Positions 12,220-26,594 of a stretch of 64,000 nt of DNA are shown here, piece after piece. The position numbers and the translations under genes were made by a program. Source of the DNA: Gordonibacter massiliensis (ex Traore et al. 2017). Its GTDB lineage: Bacteria > Actinomycetota > Coriobacteriia > Coriobacteriales > Eggerthellaceae. How positions within the stretch are numbered: the first letter of the stretch is position 1; each line of letters starts with the position of its first letter. The notes below the pieces were generated by a model, which saw only the letters and a list, made by a program, of their open reading frames with translations, was not told the DNA's origin and made no database searches. Location of the stretch: the NCBI GenBank assembly GCA_900170005.1, contig LT827128.1:620001-684000 (forward strand), read 5' to 3'.

Positions 12220-14880
12220 TCAAGCATGCTCTCCATGCTCCCTCAGTTCCTCCCGTCCGCTGACGGACAGCTTGGTGTAGATGTTGTTGCAGTGCGCGTG
12301 CACGGTGTTCTTCGATATGCCCAGATGGTCTGCTATCTCCTGGTAGCTCATCTTCTCGAGCAGAAGCTGGCGGATCTCCTTTTCCCGCCTCGTGAGGGGC
12401 TGGCCGGTCGCCGAGGCGGCCGTTCTGGGCGAGCCGTCGCCGGATCGCCCGACGTCGAGGACGCCCACGCCCAGCCGCGCGAGAAAATCGCGCACGGTTT
12501 CCGCCTCGATCGATTCCCCTATCCGTTTGGCGAAGCCGGCGCTTTCGAGCAGCGGTTTCAAAAACGGCAGCTCCAGCGCGAACGGCAGCAGGATGCGCTC
12601 CGCAAGGGCGCTTTTTACCGCATGGTGCAGCACGGCAAGGCAACGCTCCTCGTCGATGTTCGCGAGCGCGAGGGCGTCGTAAATGTCCACCGTCACCAAG
12701 CCTGCCGCATGGCGGGCCTCCCTCAGCCGGCCGACGATCTCGCCGCTCGCTTCCAAAGCCTCTTCGTCTCGCCCCTGTGCGATCAAGGTGCGCATGCGGG
12801 CGAGCGCCATGGACTTGCCCACGATGAAATCGTCGGATTGGCGTGCGAGCGGCTTTTGCCGTGCCGCCGGGCGCTCTTGCGGCCCGTTTTCGCGATGCGC
12901 GTTCAGGATGACGCGCTCGCACTCGGCCAAGGCCTGTGCGTGGAAGCAGGCATGCTTTGCGGCGTGGCGCGCCGCGTCGGACAGGATATCGCTTGCTTTT
13001 TCGAGGTTGCCGTTGACGGCCTCGAGCTTTGCCTTGACGATGAGGGCGTCGACGTAGAATTCGACGTTGCATCCGCTGCGGAGCTGCCGCGTTCCTCGGC
13101 GAAGATGCTCCCGGGCGTCCTCCGTCTCGAGCCTCTGCAGGTAGACGTCGGCGAAGCCTATGTCGAGAAGCCCGAGAGAAGGCAGGTCGGAGGGGAGGTG
13201 CCCCGCCGCCGACAAGGCATGCGTCAACACCGATTCCGCTCGCGAGGGTTTCCCCATGCCGAGGTAGTGGCGGGACAGCTGATACGAGGACAGCAGTACG
13301 ACGAGGTGGTCGCCTTTCTCCTCGGCAAGGGCGATCGACTCTTCGAACGAGTCGATCGCGGCATCGGACTGGGTGCTTCGGGAATACACGGCGCCCCTGC
13401 CCTTCGCCATCCACGCCCGCAGGCTGACATCCTCGTTGTCCGCCTCGAGGCTCAGCTGTTCCATGCAGCGCAGTCCTCCCGCCACATCGCCGGACTGTCC
13501 TTTGGCCAGTATCTCGAGCATGCTGGCCCAGCGCTTGATCTCGACGGCTACGTCGGCCTCGTAGGGTCCGCCGGCCTTCGCCACCTGCGAGATGAGCCGC
13601 TCGGCCTCGAGCGGGTTGTCCTTGCAAAGAGCGTGCGCGGCGAGCACCGAAAGCAGCAGGGGGTCTGTTTCGGTTGCTGCTTCGGTTTGCGGGCCGGACT
13701 CGACGTCGAAGCTTTGGAAGGCGGCTTGGATCGCCATGCGAACGCCTCTCTTCGGCATGGGCGTGACGGCTTGGGCGAACAGGGCCCAGCAGCCGTGATC
13801 GAGCGCCGTCTGGATTGCAAGGTCGTAGGCGTCGTGGTAGAGGTGCCAGCGAATGACGCGCCCGACGATCTGCCTCTCGCGACGGGCGCCGTAGGCCTTC
13901 GCATGGCGTTGGATGCACTTGAGGTAGAGCGGTATGAAGCGAATCGCGCCGTCCTGCCTGAGGAACACGAGTCCGGTTTGGTTAAGCCGTGAAATGCCGC
14001 CCAACGGAGTGTCGCCGAAGATGTCCCGATCCGCCTCGGGCGTCAAAACGGGAAGGAACGAACGCTCGACCACCGATGCGGCCTCGCTTTCGTCAAGCGT
14101 TGCCAGCGCGCATTCCACGAATTGATCGACGATGGACGAGGTTCCCTCGTCGAGTTCGCCGAAAGCGGAGTCGACGTTCTTCGCGCGGCCAAGGACGAGG
14201 CATATGAGCCTGAGCGCGAAGAGATGCCCCAGCGAGAGGGCCGCGATGCGGCGGATGCTCTCGTCGGGAAGCTCCGCGTTGATGCTCCGAGTGACCATGG
14301 CTTCGATTTCCCCATGGTTGAACAGCAGGTCGTCCGAGCCGATGATCGAGCAGCGCCCGGTTGCCAGGTAGAGTGCGAGCGGAATCCCCGCATCCGCTTC
14401 TTGTATGACGACGAGATGCGCGAAGGAGGGCGCGCTGTCTGCGATCTTTCCCACGAGCGTTGCTACGCCCCCTTTGGACGACAGCTTGTCGACGACCACC
14501 ACGAGGTGCCTTCCGTTGGAAGCCGCCATGTCGCACAGGCGTCTGAAATGGGCGAGGCAGCGGTTCTCGTAGCTGGCTTTCTTGCTTGCGGGGGGCTCGT
14601 CGCCGCCGAGCAACGACACCGCGCTTGCCAGGGATCTTTCAAGGTCTTCGAGGGTCTCGCCTTCGCGAGGAAGGGAGGCCCATACCGCGATGATCGCATC
14701 TTCCCGAAGCCGCCGCATGCACCAGTCGACGACGAGGGGCGTGGCCGTGTCTCCCTGGGGCGCATCAACGACAAGGAGAGGCCGCGCGAGGGCGTCATCG
14801 AGCATTTCGATGAGCCGGGCCCGGGGGAAATATCCGTGGGGGAGGTGGGGAAGGTTGCAGGAATCCCTGATCATGGTCAT
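12220..14880 (-). CDS. MalT-like large LuxR-family transcriptional regulator
   Basis: 886 residues: an N-terminal NTPase-like region, a long helical TPR-like middle (about 350-780), and a C-terminal LuxR HTH (LTRREKEIRQLLLEKMSYQEIADHLGISKNTVHAHCNNIYTKL, about 825-868). The Walker A position reads VVDAPQGDTATPLV, lacking the GK[ST] of true MalT/STAND proteins, so nucleotide binding is doubtful. The start at 14880 has GGAG 8 nt upstream. It is divergent from the SpoVA-like/molybdopterin enzyme operon, a common position for LuxR activators of inducible oxidoreductases in Eggerthellaceae (recollection), and probably controls it in response to substrate. Confidence 0.88.
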   Translation of the reverse strand: MTMIRDSCNLPHLPHGYFPRARLIEMLDDALARPLLVVDAPQGDTATPLVVDWCMRRLREDAIIAVWASLPREGETLEDLERSLASAVSLLGGDEPPASKKASYENRCLAHFRRLCDMAASNGRHLVVVVDKLSSKGGVATLVGKIADSAPSFAHLVVIQEADAGIPLALYLATGRCSIIGSDDLLFNHGEIEAMVTRSINAELPDESIRRIAALSLGHLFALRLICLVLGRAKNVDSAFGELDEGTSSIVDQFVECALATLDESEAASVVERSFLPVLTPEADRDIFGDTPLGGISRLNQTGLVFLRQDGAIRFIPLYLKCIQRHAKAYGARRERQIVGRVIRWHLYHDAYDLAIQTALDHGCWALFAQAVTPMPKRGVRMAIQAAFQSFDVESGPQTEAATETDPLLLSVLAAHALCKDNPLEAERLISQVAKAGGPYEADVAVEIKRWASMLEILAKGQSGDVAGGLRCMEQLSLEADNEDVSLRAWMAKGRGAVYSRSTQSDAAIDSFEESIALAEEKGDHLVVLLSSYQLSRHYLGMGKPSRAESVLTHALSAAGHLPSDLPSLGLLDIGFADVYLQRLETEDAREHLRRGTRQLRSGCNVEFYVDALIVKAKLEAVNGNLEKASDILSDAARHAAKHACFHAQALAECERVILNAHRENGPQERPAARQKPLARQSDDFIVGKSMALARMRTLIAQGRDEEALEASGEIVGRLREARHAAGLVTVDIYDALALANIDEERCLAVLHHAVKSALAERILLPFALELPFLKPLLESAGFAKRIGESIEAETVRDFLARLGVGVLDVGRSGDGSPRTAASATGQPLTRREKEIRQLLLEKMSYQEIADHLGISKNTVHAHCNNIYTKLSVSGREELREHGEHA

Positions 14881-14928
14881 GGGCGACTCTCCTTTTCTCA
14901 GACCCCGTTCCGGAGGTGCTAGGGACAA

Positions 14929-14979
14929 GTCTAGTCCTTTTCTTTTGATTTGCAATGAAAATTAATCGCATGACTAGAC
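14929..14979. promoter_or_regulatory. Inverted repeat GTCTAGTC / GACTAGAC in divergent region
   Basis: Perfect 8-bp arms at 14929-14936 and 14972-14979 separated by 35 bp of AT-rich sequence, between the LuxR gene and the molybdopterin-enzyme operon. It is the best candidate LuxR-type binding pair here. No clear -10/-35 could be assigned. Confidence 0.45.
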
Positions 14980-15051: not shown

Positions 15052-15090
15052 GCCTAGGCTGCTATCGGTTTGAGAAGAAGGGGGATTTGC

Positions 15091-15510
15091 ATGGAGGCGA
15101 ATAAGGTTTCAGGGGCCGTGAAGGCGGTTGTCTTGGCCTTCGTGGTGGGTGGTTGCTTCTCGGTTGTCGGCCAGCTGCTTCTTATGGCCAGCGCTGCGCT
15201 ACTGGGCTCCGACTCGGCGCTCGTCGGCCCGTTGACGTTGGTGCTCGTGGGCCTTCTCGGCTTGCTGCTGTTCCTGCCCGGTTGGTACCAGAAGCTCATG
15301 AACGTGGGCGGCTTCGGCACGATCATGCCGTTTTGCGGATTGGCGTGCGCTTGCGCGGGGGAGTACCTGCAGGCGACGGCGGAGGGCGGCTCTGTCGGCA
15401 AAGGCGCGTGGGCGGCGTTCAAGCTGCTCATCTACGTGGCGGGCGTGGGCATCGTCTTCGCGCTGTGCTTCGCCCTCATCTACGTGTTCGCCGTGACACC
15501 GGCGGTTTAG
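15091..15510 (+). CDS. SpoVA-like small integral membrane protein (1)
   Basis: 139 residues, about four membrane spans. The N-terminus (VKAVVLAFVVGGCFSVVGQLLL) resembles the FxVGGxxxxxGQ start of SpoVAC/SpoVAE proteins, which in spore formers help move dipicolinic acid across the membrane. The likely host does not sporulate, so a different small-molecule transport role is more plausible. It is the first gene of a tight run with the next SpoVA-like gene and the molybdopterin enzyme. The family call rests on the opening motif, length and topology. Confidence 0.6.
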   Translation: MEANKVSGAVKAVVLAFVVGGCFSVVGQLLLMASAALLGSDSALVGPLTLVLVGLLGLLLFLPGWYQKLMNVGGFGTIMPFCGLACACAGEYLQATAEGGSVGKGAWAAFKLLIYVAGVGIVFALCFALIYVFAVTPAV

Positions 15511-15523
15511 GGGGTATTCGATC

Positions 15524-15874
15524 ATGGAATTCGTTTTGGCTTTCATCGTGGGCGGCTGCTTGTGCGGGTTGTTTCAGATCGTGATGACGATCACCAAGCT
15601 GCACCCGCCCGAGATGCTGATCATCGGACTTGCGATAGGGGCCGCTCTGCTGCCGACGGGGATCCTCGCCTGGCTCGAGGCGACGGGCGGTGCCGGCATG
15701 AGCATCATGGTGCTCGATGCGGGCGGTGCCATCATGGGTTCGCTCATGAGCCTTTTGCACGGCGATCCGTCCTCGTTCGCCATGCTCCTCGGCATCTTCG
15801 CCTTGCTGGCGCTGATCGGCATATGCGCAGGAGCCCTCTATCAGAAGATTCATCCGGCCGGCAAAGCCGAATGA
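15524..15874 (+). CDS. SpoVA-like small integral membrane protein (2)
   Basis: 116 residues, about four spans. MEFVLAFIVGGCLCGLFQIVMTITKLHPPEMLI has the same opening as its neighbour and matches the SpoVAEb-like subgroup. It begins 13 nt after the first SpoVA-like gene and ends 43 nt before the molybdopterin enzyme, so co-transcription is likely. The pair may form one channel moving the enzyme's substrate or product (inference). Confidence 0.6.
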   Translation: MEFVLAFIVGGCLCGLFQIVMTITKLHPPEMLIIGLAIGAALLPTGILAWLEATGGAGMSIMVLDAGGAIMGSLMSLLHGDPSSFAMLLGIFALLALIGICAGALYQKIHPAGKAE

Positions 15875-15917
15875 GCAAGCGTCGAGAAAAACGGGAAAAC
15901 GGAAAAGGAGAAGGTGT

Positions 15918-18629
15918 ATGAGCGAAGAGAAGCGTATCTACGGCCATTGTCGCGCCTGCCATATGAACTGCCCCGCGTACTATACGGTGCGCGACGGGCG
16001 CGTCGTGGACATCGAGGCGGCCTCCATGCAGGAGGGGGGCATAGGCAACCTGTGCCCGCGCGGCTATGCGAGCATGCAGTTCGAGTACAGCCCCACCCGC
16101 CTGCGCTACCCGCTTAAGCGCATGGGCGCTCGCGGCGAAGGCAAGTGGCAGCGCATATCGTGGGACGAGGCCGCAAAGGAGATCGCGGAGAAGATAGACA
16201 ACCTGGTGAAGACCTACGGCGCCGAGACCTTCGTGCTGCCCGGCCGCACCGGGCGCCAGGACATGGGCTGGATCGCGGCCAAGGTCGCCCGCACCATAGG
16301 CACCCCGAACAACTACTACGGCGTGTGCCAGCTGTGCCTGCTGCCGCAGTTCATCGAGGAGGTGCAGTACGGCAACTACTGCGCCCAAAAGGTGGGGTCC
16401 GACCCCAACACGCGCCTTCTCGTGTCCTACGGTCACGAGTTCACCTCGTACGCCGATCCGATCCTGAGCAAGTTCACCACCATGAACATCAACAACGGCA
16501 TGAAGACCGTCGCCCTCGACCCCGTGTGCGGTCCGGTGGCCTCCCATGCCGACGTGTGGCTGCCCATTCGGCCCGGCACCGATCTGGCGTTCAACCTGTG
16601 CCTGATCAACTACCTTATCGAGCACGACGCCTTCGCCGCCGACTTCATGAAGGAGTGGACCAACATGGCCTTCCTCGTGAACCCCGCGACGGGCGCGCTG
16701 CTCACGGAGAAGGACGTCAAGGTCGGCGGCACCGACCAGCGCTACCTGTTCTGGGATGCGAAGGGCGGCTCCCTTGCATGGTGGGACGCCGATGCCGTGC
16801 AATGGGAGGGCGGCAAGAGCGGGCGCGCCCACTATGACCGGTGCGTGAAACGCTGGAACGACAACATCGGCTCGACCGAGCTCTCTCCCGCGCGCCTGCC
16901 CGAGGACGTCGATCCGGCGCTGTTCGGCACCTATTCCGTGACGCTCAAAGACGGCACGACCCTTCAGATGAAGCCGGCTTTCCAGCAGATGGCCGACTAC
17001 GTCAAGGAATGGAGCATCGAGAAGACGGCGGCGATCACCACCATCCCCGCGGACAAGATCGTCGAGGCCTGCGAGCTGATCGCGGCCACCCATCCGGTCG
17101 AGTACTATCAAAGCGCCCAGTACATGGCCACGAACGTGTCCCAGTGGATGCTCTCCATCACCATGCTCAAGTGCATGTCGGGCGACTTCGAGGTCCCCGG
17201 CGGCACGTCGTTCGTGCAATGCTACCCCGTCGAGCCCATGGCCTTCCCCGGGGAGTGGGACATCTCCTACAACGAAGGCCTCGACATCTCCCAGAAGCGC
17301 AAGCGGCTCGGTTACTACGAGCATCCCATTTCCGCCGGTGCGTTCCACGACGAGTTCTGGACCAAGTGGCACCCCCAGCGCCCCGAGAACGCGGACGCGC
17401 TCAACAACGTCCCCGATATGGTGGGCGTGCTGGAGGCGGCCGAGACGGGCGAGCCCTACGAGGTGCACGGCATGATATCCATCAGCTCGAACTGGCTCAT
17501 GCACGACCCGGGCACGCCGCGCTGGCTCAAGCTTCTGAAGGACGAGAGCAAGATCCAGCTGCACGTGGTGGCCGACATGGTCATGACCCCGACCGCCGAG
17601 CTCGCCGACTACGTGCTTCCCGCAGCGTCGTGGATGGAGCGCAACTACCTGGAGTTCGGCACGACGGGCGCCACCCCCTACAAGAACTTCTACCGCAAGG
17701 CCGTCGACCCCATCGGAGAGGCGAAGCAGGATTACGAGCATTGGGCGCTTATCTTCGAGGAACTCGACAAGATCGACCCGAGCTACAACCACGACCAGCC
17801 GCTCAACCCCATGACGTCGCACTACTTCGCCGGCGAGCGCGGGACGCTGTGGGAAACCAAGACGATCGACGAGGAGCGCGACCGCCTCACCCGCCGGTTC
17901 TTCGGCAAGTCGTTCGAGGAATGCCTCGAGGAACGCCGCGTGTTCGCGCCGAACTACGAGCCCGGCGCGGCCGACCATCGCCACCTGGTGGCGGGGAGGT
18001 TCCCCACCGATACGGGCAAGATCAACGCCTTCTCCACGGTGCACCAGCACTTCGGGTTCTCGCCGCTGCCGGTTTGGGATGAGCCGATCGAATCCCCGGT
18101 GAGCCGACCCGATCTGGCCGAGGAGTACCCCCTCGTGCTGTCCACCGGCAAGCGCCAACCGGGTTTCTTCCACTCCGAGTTCCGCCAACTGCCCCTCATG
18201 CGCCAGCTGAGCCCGCAACCCGACGTGCTCATGAACCCCGACACCGCTGCGGAATACGGCGTGAAGCACGGCGACTGGGTGTGGGTCGAGGCTCCCGACG
18301 CCAACGGCCGCGGCGATTTGCGCCGCATCATGGGCCGGGTGAGCACGCGGCTGATGATGCGCCCTGGACAGGTCACGTACAGCCAGCATGCATGGTGGCG
18401 CCCCGAGAAGGGCGTGGAGGAGGATCTTCACGGCGCGTTGGAGTGGAACGCCGAAGTGCTTTGCACCGCTGCCAACGGCTGCCCTGAAACCGGAACGCTC
18501 GGCGTGCGCTCGATGCTGTGCAAGGTGTATCCCTGCTCTCCGGAGGATATCGAGAAGTACCGCCCCCTGATCACCCGCGAAGAACTCGAAGACATGATGC
18601 CCGATTACGGCATCGCAAAGGAGGCCTAG
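15918..18629 (+). CDS. Molybdopterin oxidoreductase, acetylene-hydratase/catechol-dehydroxylase-like, cytoplasmic
   Basis: 903 residues of the DMSO-reductase superfamily. An N-terminal [4Fe-4S] site is formed by Cys11, Cys14, Cys18 and Cys46 (CRACHMNC...LCPRG). There is no Tat signal, so it should act in the cytoplasm. From memory, the segments LCPRGYA, RYPLK, WQRISWDEA and the late MTPTAELADYVLPAASWMERN align with Pelobacter acetylene hydratase, the branch that also holds transhydroxylases and gut catechol dehydroxylases. The metal-ligand region is YGVCQLC (Cys137/Cys140), implying a Cys ligand. The FeS subunit follows after 2 nt. RBS AAAGGAGAAGG. The substrate cannot be read from sequence. 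Confidence 0.88.
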   Translation: MSEEKRIYGHCRACHMNCPAYYTVRDGRVVDIEAASMQEGGIGNLCPRGYASMQFEYSPTRLRYPLKRMGARGEGKWQRISWDEAAKEIAEKIDNLVKTYGAETFVLPGRTGRQDMGWIAAKVARTIGTPNNYYGVCQLCLLPQFIEEVQYGNYCAQKVGSDPNTRLLVSYGHEFTSYADPILSKFTTMNINNGMKTVALDPVCGPVASHADVWLPIRPGTDLAFNLCLINYLIEHDAFAADFMKEWTNMAFLVNPATGALLTEKDVKVGGTDQRYLFWDAKGGSLAWWDADAVQWEGGKSGRAHYDRCVKRWNDNIGSTELSPARLPEDVDPALFGTYSVTLKDGTTLQMKPAFQQMADYVKEWSIEKTAAITTIPADKIVEACELIAATHPVEYYQSAQYMATNVSQWMLSITMLKCMSGDFEVPGGTSFVQCYPVEPMAFPGEWDISYNEGLDISQKRKRLGYYEHPISAGAFHDEFWTKWHPQRPENADALNNVPDMVGVLEAAETGEPYEVHGMISISSNWLMHDPGTPRWLKLLKDESKIQLHVVADMVMTPTAELADYVLPAASWMERNYLEFGTTGATPYKNFYRKAVDPIGEAKQDYEHWALIFEELDKIDPSYNHDQPLNPMTSHYFAGERGTLWETKTIDEERDRLTRRFFGKSFEECLEERRVFAPNYEPGAADHRHLVAGRFPTDTGKINAFSTVHQHFGFSPLPVWDEPIESPVSRPDLAEEYPLVLSTGKRQPGFFHSEFRQLPLMRQLSPQPDVLMNPDTAAEYGVKHGDWVWVEAPDANGRGDLRRIMGRVSTRLMMRPGQVTYSQHAWWRPEKGVEEDLHGALEWNAEVLCTAANGCPETGTLGVRSMLCKVYPCSPEDIEKYRPLITREELEDMMPDYGIAKEA

Positions 18630-18631
18630 CC

Positions 18632-19252
18632 ATGACCCGCATGGGATATGTGTTCAACTGCGACACCTGCCTCGACGTCCGCGGCTGCCAAACAGCCTGC
18701 AAGCTGTACCACGAGACCCCGATGGGCATCTACCACACGGAAACGCAGACGAGCGTCGACCACTCGTCGTACCCGGATGCCAACGAGTACTTCCTGCCGA
18801 TCATCTGCCAGCAATGCGGCAATCCCTCGTGCGTGCCCGCGTGCCCTTCCGGCGCGCTCGAAAAGCTCGACAACGGCATCGTGTCGATTGCGAACCCCGA
18901 AGCCTGCAAGGCATGCGAATCGGGCGCTTGCGAGGAGGCCTGCCCGTACGGCGGCATTCATTTCGACAAGCCGACGGGTAGGGCGTACAAGTGCGACCTT
19001 TGCATCGAACGTCTTGAAAAAGGCCTCAACCCTCGCTGCGTCGACGGGTGCCTGACGCAGTCGCGTTTTTGCGGTGATTTTGACGACCCGAACAGCGTGG
19101 TGTCCCAAGCCGTCTCCAGCTGGGAAGGCTACGTCCACCAGCTCAAGCCCGAGACCGGCAACGAGCCCAACGTGTACTACCTGCTGAGCAAGAAACGCTG
19201 GGACGACATGAACAACCTCGTGACCACCCAGTGGCACAACCCTGCCGAATAA
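18632..19252 (+). CDS. DmsB-like four-cluster ferredoxin subunit
   Basis: 206 residues with four cysteine clusters in DmsB/PhsB order: CDTCLDVRGCQTAC near the N-terminus, CQQCGNPSCVPACP (about 57), CKACESGACEEACP (about 92), then CDLC with a downstream C...C pair. It would carry electrons to or from the molybdopterin subunit encoded 2 nt upstream. No membrane-anchor subunit follows, so the partner donor is probably soluble. ATG 18632 directly follows the previous stop, with AAAGGAGG upstream. Confidence 0.92.
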   Translation: MTRMGYVFNCDTCLDVRGCQTACKLYHETPMGIYHTETQTSVDHSSYPDANEYFLPIICQQCGNPSCVPACPSGALEKLDNGIVSIANPEACKACESGACEEACPYGGIHFDKPTGRAYKCDLCIERLEKGLNPRCVDGCLTQSRFCGDFDDPNSVVSQAVSSWEGYVHQLKPETGNEPNVYYLLSKKRWDDMNNLVTTQWHNPAE

Positions 19253-19266
19253 GGCAACCTCACGAC

Positions 19267-19305
19267 GGCGGGCTCCCGGCTGCAGGCTTGGGTGCCCGCC
19301 CTTTT
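19267..19305 (+). terminator. Terminator-like hairpin between FeS subunit and chaperone genes
   Basis: Stem GGCGGGC (19267-19273) with GCCCGCC (19294-19300), then CTTTT. The T-run is short, so partial read-through into the chaperone gene (19349) is likely, which would set a lower chaperone level. Confidence 0.6.
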
Positions 19306-19348
19306 ACAACTTTCTTTACGAGGGGCAAGAGCACCGAGGGGATGAAAC

Positions 19349-19987
19349 ATGAACGATACGCATAACGGAGAAGAGCTCGCCGCGCAGGCCTCGAGCCTCA
19401 GATGGCTCGCACGGGCGTTTTGGAACGTCCCGGACCAAGCGTGGCTCGATGCCTTCGACGGCGAAGAGCTGCGGGCTGCGGGCGTTTCGACGGATATCGC
19501 TGGTCGGCTTGCCGATGCGATATCAAGCGCAGGCGAAGGCTTCTTGCGGGATGCGGCCGTGGACTACACGTCCCTGTTCGCGAGCAGCGATCTTGCGGCC
19601 CCGCACCCCTACGAGTCGATCTACTTCGGACGCGCGCGCCAGATGATGCAGGGCTGTCGCGACGACGTGCTGCTTTGCTACCAAGCCGCCGGGTTCGACA
19701 GCGCATCGGCAGAGCCGTCGGAGGCCAACGAACCCGAGGATCACCTGAGCTACGAGCTCTGCTTTCTCGCGTATCTGCTCGACTTCGCAGTTTACGCCGA
19801 AAACGTTGAGGAGCGAGATCTTTACCTCGACGAGGCGGGGCGGTTCGCCGAAGAGCATCTCGGAGTATGGCTCGCCTCCTTTGTTTTCGAGGTATCCGAA
19901 CAAGCCGGCACCGAGCTGTACCGAGCGGTTGCGGCGACCCTCGAAGAACTCGTGAGATCCATGGAGGGCTCCCTCGGGCGAAGCTGA
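19349..19987 (+). CDS. TorD/DmsD-like molybdoenzyme assembly chaperone
   Basis: 212 residues, all-helical. Features of the TorD family include YTSLFASSDLAAPHPYESIYFG (the conserved Y..LF......PYESVY element, about residues 72-92) and the later EPEDHLSYELCFLAYLL (E.DH...EL.F). Such chaperones hold the apo-molybdoenzyme until cofactor insertion. Its position after the molybdopterin and FeS subunits supports a dedicated role. ATG 19349 is preceded by GAGGGGATGAAAC. Confidence 0.85.
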   Translation: MNDTHNGEELAAQASSLRWLARAFWNVPDQAWLDAFDGEELRAAGVSTDIAGRLADAISSAGEGFLRDAAVDYTSLFASSDLAAPHPYESIYFGRARQMMQGCRDDVLLCYQAAGFDSASAEPSEANEPEDHLSYELCFLAYLLDFAVYAENVEERDLYLDEAGRFAEEHLGVWLASFVFEVSEQAGTELYRAVAATLEELVRSMEGSLGRS

Positions 19988-20115: not shown

Positions 20116-20895
20116 TTAGTCTGCTTGGCTCGCGGCTTCGTCCACGCAGCGCAGGGCGTTCAGGCTGCGCGGGTAGCCGATGTAGGGCAGGCACTGCGAC
20201 ACCACCTTCACGAGGAAGGCGTGGTCGTTGCCCAGCCGCATGTTGGCGGCGGCGTGGCTCGTGAGCTGGGGCTCGCAGCCGCCCTGCGCGGCCAGGAAGC
20301 AGAACGTGATCATCTCGCGCTCGGCCAGCGTGAGGCCGCCGCGCGTGTACCAGTCGCCGAAGCAGTTGCCGGCGAGCCAGCGGTTGACGTGGGCGGCGTC
20401 GCCCTCGCCCGACTTCCAGAAATCGCGCATGCCCTCGCCGAAGATGTCGACCTGCGCCTGGATGCCGGCCTCGAGGCGGGTGTCCGGCGTGGTGCGCGCT
20501 TGGGGCTCGAGCGGCAGCGCCACGCCGCGCTCGGCCAGCACCTCGTTGGTCGTCTTCAGAAACGGCAGGACGCGGCCGGCGCCCAGATAGGCCGTGGCCT
20601 GGTACACGATCTCCTTCGCCTCCACGGGCGTCACGCCCCGTTCGAGCGCGGCGTGCAGGAAGCTGCGGAAGGCGCCCGAGCCCTGGCAGCCCAACAGCGT
20701 GGCGAGGACGGCCATGAGGCGCGTGCGCTCGTCAAGGTCTCCGCCTGCGCCCTCGGTGTTCGGAACCTCGTCGAAGGCGAAGTTGTCGAACCGCTCGACG
20801 AACTCGGGATCGGTTTCCAGAAACGACGACGTGGCGTAACCGGGCGACATCCTCTCGCGGCAGGCGCGGGCGGCGTCGGTGATGGCTGGTTGCAT
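20116..20895 (-). CDS. Carboxymuconolactone decarboxylase (CMD)-family protein, two-domain
   Basis: 259 residues with two AhpD/CMD-type repeats: residues about 55-130 (RTRLMAVLATLLGCQGSGAF...ALERGVTPVEAKEIVYQATAYLG) and about 170-250 (EREMITFCFLAAQGGCEPQLTSHAAANMRLG). The fold covers decarboxylases and peroxidase-like proteins; the substrate is unknown. ATG 20895 has GGAG 6-7 nt upstream. Transcription comes from a MerR-type promoter at 20933-20963, grouping it with the aldo-keto reductases and cupin of this island. Confidence 0.85.
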   Translation of the reverse strand: MQPAITDAARACRERMSPGYATSSFLETDPEFVERFDNFAFDEVPNTEGAGGDLDERTRLMAVLATLLGCQGSGAFRSFLHAALERGVTPVEAKEIVYQATAYLGAGRVLPFLKTTNEVLAERGVALPLEPQARTTPDTRLEAGIQAQVDIFGEGMRDFWKSGEGDAAHVNRWLAGNCFGDWYTRGGLTLAEREMITFCFLAAQGGCEPQLTSHAAANMRLGNDHAFLVKVVSQCLPYIGYPRSLNALRCVDEAASQAD

Positions 20896-20932
20896 GATGT
20901 GCTCCAATCTTTCGCGTATTTGTTACGGTTAC

Positions 20933-24405: not shown

Positions 24406-25092
24406 ATGAATGAACGTACAGCTGCCATTATCAACCGTCGCCGCTTTATCGGACTTGCCGCCACGGCCGGTGCGACGGCGCTCTTCGGCGGCGCGCTTGC
24501 CGGATGCTCGTCCGAGAGCACGGAGCCGCGCGCTTCGCAGAGCGCCGCCGACGAGGCTGCGCCCGAACGGCCGACCGACACCGGTGCGGCGGCATCTCCC
24601 GAGGCTACCGCGTCCTCCCAGGCGCTCGTGGCCGTGTTCTCGTGGTCGGGGCATACCGCGCAGGTGGCCGACCGCATTCACGAGCTGGTGAAGAGCGACT
24701 ACTTCCGCATCGAGCCGGCCGAGCCGTACACGGACGACTACAACGCGCTGCTCGACGTGGCCCAGCGGGAGCAGGACGAGGACTACCGCCCCGCGCTGGC
24801 GGCCTCGGTGGATAACTGGGACGAATACGACACGATCTACCTGGGCTTTCCCGTGTGGTGGTACCACGTGCCGCAGATCATCAAAACGTTTGTGACCGAG
24901 CACGACCTGACGGGCAAGACCGTCGCGGTGTTCGGCACGAGCGGCGGCAGCAGCGTGGCGAGCACGCTGGGCAACATCGAGGCGCTGTGCCCGGGCGTGG
25001 CCTTTGCCGGCAACCTCACGCTCGACGGCGACGCGGTGGCCTCGCAGCTCGACCGCGTGGACACATGGCTTGGCGACTTGGGGCTGCGATGA
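24406..25092 (+). CDS. Tat-exported flavodoxin lipoprotein
   Basis: 228 residues. The signal has a twin arginine (NRRRFIG, about residue 11) and a lipobox ALAGCSS (Cys34), then a Ser/Ala/Glu-rich linker to about residue 70. The mature domain is a flavodoxin: VAVFSWSGHTAQVADRIHE, FPVWWYHVPQIIKTF, FGTSGGSSVASTL. A Tat route implies export folded with FMN bound, so it should carry electrons on the outer face of the membrane. ATG 24406 follows AGGAG. It overlaps the next gene by 4 nt (ATGA). Confidence 0.9.
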   Translation: MNERTAAIINRRRFIGLAATAGATALFGGALAGCSSESTEPRASQSAADEAAPERPTDTGAAASPEATASSQALVAVFSWSGHTAQVADRIHELVKSDYFRIEPAEPYTDDYNALLDVAQREQDEDYRPALAASVDNWDEYDTIYLGFPVWWYHVPQIIKTFVTEHDLTGKTVAVFGTSGGSSVASTLGNIEALCPGVAFAGNLTLDGDAVASQLDRVDTWLGDLGLR

Positions 25093-26594
25093 GCGGCCTG
25101 CCCATGCCCCGGCGGTCCTTCTTGAAGGCGGGGGCCGCGCTGGGAGGAACGGCGCTGCTGGGCGTCCTCGGGCTTTCGGGCTGTTCGTCGTGGACGCCCC
25201 GATCGGCGTCGTCGGGTGATTCCTCGGGCTTCGATGCGGAACAGGAGGCGAATGCGATGAATGCGGCAACGACGCCGTCCGACGTGCGGGACGGGCTGGT
25301 TTCCATCCCCGGCGGCACGTTTTCCATGGGAAGCCCTGCGGACGAGGGTTGGCGCGGGGAAGACGAGGCGCTTCACGAGGTGGAGGTGTCCGGCTTCTTC
25401 TTGGCGTCCTTCGAGACGACGCAGGCCGACTACGAGCGGCTCATGGGCGCGAACCCGAGCGCCAACGCCGGCGCCGGCCTGCCGGTGGAAAGCGTGACCT
25501 GGTACGACGCGGCGGCCTACTGCAACGCGCTCTCCGCCGAGGCGGGCCTTTCCCCCGCCTACGCCATCGACGGGGCGACGGTGACGTGGGATCTGTCCGC
25601 CGACGGCTACCGGCTGCCCACGGAGGCCGAATGGGAGTACGCTTGCCGCGCCGGCACGACCACGCCCTTCAACACGCAGACCTCCATCAGCCCCGACACC
25701 GAGGCGAACTACTACGGAACCTACCCCTACGGCATCGAGGAGAACTACTTCTCGCAGGGCGGCCTCGAAACCCGTCCGGGCGTGTACCGCCAGACTCCCA
25801 TCGAGCCGGGCAGCTTCGCGCCGAACGCCTGGGGGCTCTTCGACATGCACGGCAACGTGGCCGAATGGGTGTGGGATTACTACGGCCCCTACGACGAGGC
25901 GGTGCAGATCGATCCCACGGGCGCGCCGACGGGAGCTTTGCGCGTGAACCGCGGGGGCGGCTGGAACGACTTCGCCAAGAGCCTGCGCAGCGCCTACCGC
26001 GCGGCCCTGCCGGCCGACGGTGCGAGCCCCAGCGTGGGCTTCCGCGTGGCGCGCAACGCCGCCGCCAAGACGGGCGTGCTGGGCGCGCAGGTGGCGACGA
26101 CGGCGACGGGCGACGGCGATGTGCTGGTGGCCTTCTTCTCGTGGAGCGGCAACACGCGCGGCATCGCGCAGGAGATCGCGCGGCAGACCGGTTTCGACGT
26201 GGTGGAGTTGGAGTGCGAGCAACCGTACTCATCCGACTACAACACGGTGCTCGAAGAGGCGCAGCGCGACCAGAACGTCCAGGCGCGCCCCGCGCTGGCG
26301 ACGCGCGTGGGCGACATGGACCGCTACGGCACCGTCCTTCTGGGCTATCCCAACTGGTGGGCGTCCATCCCCATGCCCATCGCGTCGTTCTTGGGAAGCT
26401 ACGACTTCTCGGGCAAGACCATCGTGCCGTTCTGCAGCCACGGCGGCGGCAGGCTCGGGCAGAGCGTGTCGGCCATCTCGAAGCTGGCGCAGAACGCGAC
26501 GCTGGGCGAGGGGCTGTCGGTGCACTACTCCGGCGGGTCGGGCCTCGCGGCCGACGTGTCCGCCTGGCTCGAGCGAAACGGGATAGGGCGATGA
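25089..26594 (+). CDS. Tat lipoprotein: SUMF1/FGE-like domain fused to a flavodoxin
   Basis: 501 residues. Tat motif PRRSFLK and lipobox GLSGCSS (about residue 32) open the chain. Residues about 65-320 are an FGE-sulfatase (SUMF1) domain: VSIPGGTFSMGS, YRLPTEAEWEYACRAGT, FDMHGNVAEWVWD, RVNRGGGWNDF and GFRVAR. In true formylglycine-generating enzymes the copper Cys pair follows RGGSW; here that stretch (WNDFAKSLRSAYRAAL) has no Cys, so catalysis is unlikely. Residues about 340-501 are a flavodoxin (AFFSWSGNTRGIAQEI, PNWWASIPMPIASF). I recall no described protein with this combination. Coupled by ATGA on both sides. Confidence 0.88.
   Translation: MSGLPMPRRSFLKAGAALGGTALLGVLGLSGCSSWTPRSASSGDSSGFDAEQEANAMNAATTPSDVRDGLVSIPGGTFSMGSPADEGWRGEDEALHEVEVSGFFLASFETTQADYERLMGANPSANAGAGLPVESVTWYDAAAYCNALSAEAGLSPAYAIDGATVTWDLSADGYRLPTEAEWEYACRAGTTTPFNTQTSISPDTEANYYGTYPYGIEENYFSQGGLETRPGVYRQTPIEPGSFAPNAWGLFDMHGNVAEWVWDYYGPYDEAVQIDPTGAPTGALRVNRGGGWNDFAKSLRSAYRAALPADGASPSVGFRVARNAAAKTGVLGAQVATTATGDGDVLVAFFSWSGNTRGIAQEIARQTGFDVVELECEQPYSSDYNTVLEEAQRDQNVQARPALATRVGDMDRYGTVLLGYPNWWASIPMPIASFLGSYDFSGKTIVPFCSHGGGRLGQSVSAISKLAQNATLGEGLSVHYSGGSGLAADVSAWLERNGIGR

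Follow-up and report, generated by a model that had tools for sequence, protein, structure and literature searches.

A five-gene stretch of a Gordonibacter genome opens with two genes for small membrane proteins related to components of the SpoVA channel, and continues with a molybdopterin enzyme and its accessory proteins. That channel is known from spores, inside which its mechanism of transport is difficult to study. The locus raises the question of what such a pair does at the head of a molybdoenzyme operon. In what follows, the window is the whole stretch of 64,000 nucleotides that was analysed, corresponding to positions 620001-684000 of a genome of 3.95 Mb present as a single contig.

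Organization of the operon

The five genes at 15091-19987 are a single predicted operon. All of them lie on the plus strand, with intergenic gaps of 13, 43, 2 and 96 bp, and a large regulator gene is divergent from them. The features are as follows:

12220-14955, minus strand: divergent LuxR regulator of the MalT type, 911 aa (Pfam: TPR_MalT PF17874, 65 bits; GerE HTH PF00196, 50.6 bits)
15072-15084, plus strand: purine-rich ribosome-binding site ahead of the SpoVAC-like gene (sequence inspection)
15091-15510, plus strand: membrane protein of 139 aa, SpoVAC-like, the first of the pair and in the S clade described below (PF03862, 46.5 bits; TIGR02838, 37.3 bits; hydrophobic spans)
15524-15874, plus strand: membrane protein of 116 aa, SpoVAEb-like, the second of the pair (PF03862, 23.2 bits; TIGR02839, 28.5 bits; four hydrophobic spans)
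15918-18629, plus strand: cytoplasmic molybdopterin enzyme of the bis-MGD type, 903 aa (PF00384, PF01568 and PF04879 over cut-off; Cys ligand; one [4Fe-4S] motif, CRACHMNC; no Tat motif)
18632-19252, plus strand: FeS electron-transfer subunit, 206 aa, DmsB/TtrB-like (Fer4_11 PF13247, 71.9 bits; NCBIfam ArrB 125.6 and TtrB 123.5 bits, both under cut-off)
19349-19987, plus strand: TorD/NarJ-type assembly chaperone, 212 aa (PF02613, 68.2 bits)

The initial annotation had described two SpoVA-like genes heading an operon with a Cys-ligated molybdoenzyme, its FeS subunit and a chaperone, and a large LuxR regulator divergent from it. All of these were found where it had placed them, the regulator being the 911-residue protein with MalT-type TPRs and a LuxR HTH. 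A promoter scan found none, and terminators were uninformative.

Two features beyond the operon are recorded here. A gene of the carboxymuconolactone decarboxylase family (20116-20907, minus strand) is convergent with the operon. Further on, as judged by eye, a long reading frame (24855-26594) contains a SUMF1-like and then a flavodoxin-like stretch, with two more flavodoxin-like genes nearby.

The SpoVA-like pair

The cut-off for PF03862 is 25 bits, so that the first protein is a member of the family and the second falls slightly short of it. Of the NCBIfam models, the first protein matches SpoVAC better than SpoVAE (22.9 bits), and the second matches the SpoVAE model only. The equivalog cut-offs are 164 bits for SpoVAC (TIGR02838) and 131 bits for SpoVAE (TIGR02839). 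Both proteins score far below them, and we therefore regard the pair as relatives of SpoVAC and SpoVAEb and not as orthologs.

SpoVAD is essential for the uptake of dipicolinic acid (DPA) in spores. No SpoVAD (PF07451) was found in the window's genome, and none of 137 Eggerthellaceae genomes has a match over cut-off. As described in excerpts of PMC13059800, SpoVAC and SpoVAEb are predicted to form a membrane complex in spores through which DPA, a small aromatic dicarboxylate, passes, with SpoVAD as its plug; the SpoVA complex serves for DPA import and probably for export too.

A tree of 55 SpoVA rows splits into a slowly evolving clade of fused proteins (F, 26 rows) and a fast clade (S, 29 rows, of which 21 are from Eggerthellaceae and eight from other Coriobacteriia); a 22nd Eggerthellaceae locus, L096, is cut by a contig end and was left out. 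The F clade has a conserved neighbourhood of its own: at 11 of its 26 loci (L042, L044-L048, L050, L051, L055, L056 and L095) the fused protein lies beside an EF-G-like GTPase, often together with an amidohydrolase.

In the alignment of the 29 S and 26 F rows, the conserved positions are mostly Gly, Phe and Gln. The position corresponding to Lys68 in the window is occupied by Lys or Arg in all 29 S rows, as against 6 of the 26 F rows. The models that AlphaFold gave for a natural fusion and for the first protein had low confidence (mean pLDDT 42 and 59), and searching the PDB by sequence with the SpoVA alignment yielded no believable match.

The molybdopterin enzyme

The best relative of the window enzyme in the PDB is acetylene hydratase (2e7z, 222.7 bits), with 140.3 bits for ethylbenzene dehydrogenase and 132.2 bits for thiosulfate/polysulfide reductase. 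The Cys in its motif QLCLLP aligns with the Cys that serves acetylene hydratase as metal ligand. Directly after its second cluster Cys, the window enzyme has His (CRACH), where acetylene hydratase has Asp, the catalytic Asp13.

An enzyme tree was calculated from 31 rows, namely five PDB chains and 26 Eggerthellaceae enzymes. In it the window enzyme groups with four orthologs (support 100/100). Acetylene hydratase is placed within the Eggerthellaceae sequences and away from both polysulfide reductase and the formate dehydrogenases; support for this is modest (82/76 and 92/94), and the branches are long. The initial annotation had assigned the enzyme to a branch of acetylene hydratases and catechol dehydroxylases, as distinct from formate dehydrogenases or polysulfide reductases. 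The distinction agrees with our results, the PDB scores being clear and the tree support weak (82/76). Of the branch assignment, acetylene hydratase as nearest relative stands, again with clear PDB scores and a weak tree; placement with the catechol dehydroxylases would come through acetylene hydratase and the genus context only.

We infer from excerpts of the published descriptions, and from the loci examined here, that a small FeS subunit of about 110 aa marks the Gordonibacter-type catechol dehydroxylases. The FeS subunit in the window has 206 aa and thus lacks this mark; a subunit of about 110 aa is present beside many other pair-linked enzymes. At three SpoVA-linked loci (L035, L085 and L086), Glu and Trp replace the cluster Cys of the enzyme at two aligned N-terminal columns, and the N-terminal FeS cluster may have been lost there.

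The first start codon of the window enzyme after the upstream stop is at 15918, and the protein has no twin-arginine motif. The same is true of all the Eggerthellaceae enzymes in the tree: a Tat motif was found in none of the 26 rows. We therefore conclude that these enzymes act in the cytoplasm, and that their substrates must be brought in. In excerpts of PMC7028382, PMC12771579, PMC11887054 and PMC11585353, the cytoplasmic catechol dehydroxylases of Gordonibacter are described as adjoining LuxR regulators and MFS genes, the latter being thought to import the substrates.

Transporters beside orthologous enzymes

Orthologs of the window enzyme, at 53-55% identity, were found in four other genomes of the 396 searched, and none of the four has a SpoVA-like pair beside it. 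Two of them (L074 and L075) have the gene order enzyme-FeS-TorD-MFS, a third (L073) has enzyme-FeS-TorD-second enzyme-MFS, and in the fourth (L072) enzyme and FeS genes are followed by two CitMHS/DASS genes. The idea of a conserved SpoVA partner for this particular enzyme is therefore rejected, and the absence of the pair from the four orthologs found indicates that the pairing is modular.

The enzyme at L032 provides a comparison between closer relatives. The pair lies beside this enzyme and beside its 93% relative at L081, in two Gordonibacter genomes. Orthologs at 92-93% identity are present in the window's genome (92%) and in genome G153. Each of these has an adjacent polytopic protein, and a homology scan found no SpoVA match beside either of them; in the window's genome, the gene directly upstream on the same strand is an MFS gene (Pfam).

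It appears from these gene orders that pairs and classical transporters tend to hold comparable places in otherwise similar operons. We scanned for polytopic proteins within 6 kb of 22 S pairs and identified ten proteins by Pfam. The neighbours comprise membrane LuxR regulators, proteins such as SecY, CitMHS (L087), MFS (L092 and L094), SSF (L039) and EamA (L094) proteins, and the window itself has an MFS gene beyond the divergent regulator. Since other transporters occur near some S pairs, the exchange is a tendency and not a rule.

Orthologous enzymes carry MFS or CitMHS/DASS genes where the window has the pair, and this indirectly supports the suggestion of an organic or aromatic acid as the compound that the pair moves. 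The pair probably moves a small-acid substrate or product of the adjacent molybdenum enzymes, and the compound transported is probably anionic. The direction of movement is a separate matter. We consider it unlikely that the pair, as exporter or pressure-release channel, lets the product or a toxic substrate out instead of being an importer. In favour of export, SpoVA complexes have been implicated in both directions in spores (excerpts of PMC13059800), and the pair at L038 and L040 comes after genes whose products would form a free acid; the MFS genes beside cytoplasmic catechol dehydroxylases, on the other hand, are read as substrate importers in PMC12771579.

Recurrence of the association

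Among 296 Coriobacteriia genomes, 32 contain PF03862. When 138 Eggerthellaceae genomes were searched with a profile made from the first SpoVA-like protein, 49 of them matched, at 65 places; in a scan of the phylum the profile's matches were confined to Eggerthellaceae (2 of 396 genomes), and only five loci were obtained from named genomes scanned with a SpoVA alignment. We examined the surroundings at 48 of the 65 places. The other 17, fused-like by score and frame length, were left out (one of these lies inside L061 and was not counted). Loci were annotated by homology on stop-to-stop frames, as self-trained codon usage chose shadow frames at high-GC loci.

A molybdoenzyme gene lies nearby, within the fetched stretches, at 18 of the 22 S loci of the Eggerthellaceae (that at L082 being a truncated remnant), as against 5 of the 26 F loci. 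By Fisher's test p is 2.8e-5, rising to 1.1e-4 if L082 is scored as lacking a molybdoenzyme; related loci are treated here as independent, and the values serve as a guide only. In nine of the 18 (the window, L032, L081, L037, L084, L087, L039, L090 and L082) the pair immediately adjoins the enzyme genes and has the same orientation. It is divergent from the enzyme at four (L091, L092, L093 and L096), and at five a regulator or other genes lie between the two (L035, L085, L086, L094 and L098).

The partner enzymes of the S pairs occupy three places in the enzyme tree: the window group, L039, and a clade of 17 rows, 14 from S loci and three from F loci. The partners at L082, L090 and L091 were too incomplete to be included. 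The pairing thus recurs elsewhere, as the initial annotation had supposed, and does so in at least three enzyme lineages. We found no paper joining SpoVA with such molybdoenzymes in the literature searched.

At the remaining four S loci of the family, the fetched stretch contains no molybdoenzyme gene. Nothing was found at L034 and L083. At L088 and L089 the pair adjoins URO-D-family enzymes, with contig ends near; CobW and MFS genes are also present at L088 (2769-8360). No molybdoenzyme was found at the eight S loci outside the Eggerthellaceae. Two of these, L038 (8279-12150) and L040 (4188-9411), have S-clade genes after genes for an acyl kinase and for phosphotransacylase-like and BbsA-like proteins, with an acyl-carrier-like protein also at L040. 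It is possible that these sets encode an acid-forming, ATP-yielding pathway. The URO-D and acyl-kinase neighbourhoods are again small-molecule operons, and we count them in favour of transport.

These loci also bear on a different role, in which the SpoVA-like proteins would be a membrane anchor or quinol-oxidising subunit connecting the electron transport chain with the FeS subunit in the cytoplasm. The small membrane proteins do share an operon with the FeS subunit, and the window operon has no NrfD/DmsC-type anchor. We nevertheless consider such a role quite unlikely, and reject it on four grounds. No conserved His that could be a heme ligand was found in the 29 S rows, which speaks against a heme-carrying anchor; L039 has a DmsC anchor as well as the pair; S pairs are present in the URO-D and acyl-kinase operons, in whose stretches no molybdoenzyme was found; and the genes with which the pair is exchanged are MFS and CitMHS genes, not anchors.

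That the pairing is a by-product of molybdoenzyme-crowded genomes, with no common function, is very improbable: although such genes are very numerous in Gordonibacter (34 matches at E < 1e-100 to one Gordonibacter molybdoenzyme in the 3.95 Mb of the window's genome) and four S loci of the family lack one, the sister F clade in the same family only seldom has one nearby, the pair often lies right next to the enzyme genes in the same orientation, and the association repeats across separate enzyme lineages and in several arrangements.

Proposed function

We consider it likely that the pair is the two-subunit core of a SpoVA-type channel, repurposed as the dedicated transport module of a molybdoenzyme operon. 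In favour of this transport function we count the recurrence of the association, the several enzyme lineages involved, the exchange with other transporters, the lack of Tat motifs, the invariant Lys/Arg, and the passage of DPA through SpoVAC/SpoVAEb. Against it we count the four orthologs without a pair, the poor AlphaFold models, the absence of SpoVAD, and the presence of other transporters near some pairs.

The operon would then work as follows. The divergent LuxR/MalT-type regulator would sense a small organic substrate, and the operon would be induced. The SpoVAC/SpoVAEb-like heteromer would let the substrate (probably an organic or aromatic carboxylate) in, and/or the product out. The TorD-like chaperone would assist assembly of the molybdoenzyme, which would use the substrate as electron acceptor, fed via the FeS subunit. 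The operon, the family assignments, the Cys ligand, the lack of a Tat motif, the recurrent pairing and the exchange with MFS or CitMHS/DASS genes are seen in the sequences themselves; what we infer is that the pair forms a channel, that it carries a substrate or product of this enzyme, that the compound is anionic, how the regulator acts and which way the electrons flow.

A wider proposal, which we put forward tentatively, is that heteromers of the SpoVAC/SpoVAEb type are general facilitators for small carboxylates or phenolic acids, of which the movement of DPA in spores would be one specialised use. In gut Coriobacteriia they could have diversified into an interchangeable transport cassette that serves cytoplasmic molybdoenzymes, as well as URO-D or acyl-kinase pathways, in the metabolism of aromatic acids from the diet or the host. 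A minimal two-protein version of SpoVA, if it works in vegetative, cultivable gut bacteria, would offer a simple system for the movement of small aromatic acids. It would also supply the missing transport step of a group of gut molybdoenzymes, whose substrates may become easier to predict once the transporter is identified.

Comparison with known systems

The window pair resembles the SpoVAC/SpoVAEb core of the DPA channel of Bacillus and Clostridium in consisting of two adjacent small membrane proteins that match PF03862. It differs from the spore system in lying far below the equivalog cut-offs, in occurring without SpoVAD, and in having molybdoenzyme partners. The fused SpoVA-like proteins of the F clade (Eggerthellaceae, about 290-400 aa) are from the same Pfam family, with two repeats per chain, but unlike the pair they evolve slowly, are often beside EF-G-like, amidohydrolase or LemA genes, and mostly lack the basic residue at the Lys68 position.

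For the enzyme, acetylene hydratase (2e7z) is the closest solved sequence and has its Cys ligand at the same position. The window enzyme is unlike it in having His in place of Asp, together with an FeS subunit and a chaperone, and the relationship is across a long branch with weak tree support. The catechol dehydroxylases of Gordonibacter (Dodh and Eadh), compared by their description in excerpts of PMC7028382, PMC12771579 and PMC11887054, come from the same genus as the window operon and, like its enzyme, have an FeS partner and no Tat motif; in both cases the cluster also contains a transporter and a LuxR-type regulator. On the same descriptions, the window operon is set apart by its SpoVA-like pair in place of MFS, its FeS subunit of 206 aa, its own TorD, and its MalT-type TPR regulator.
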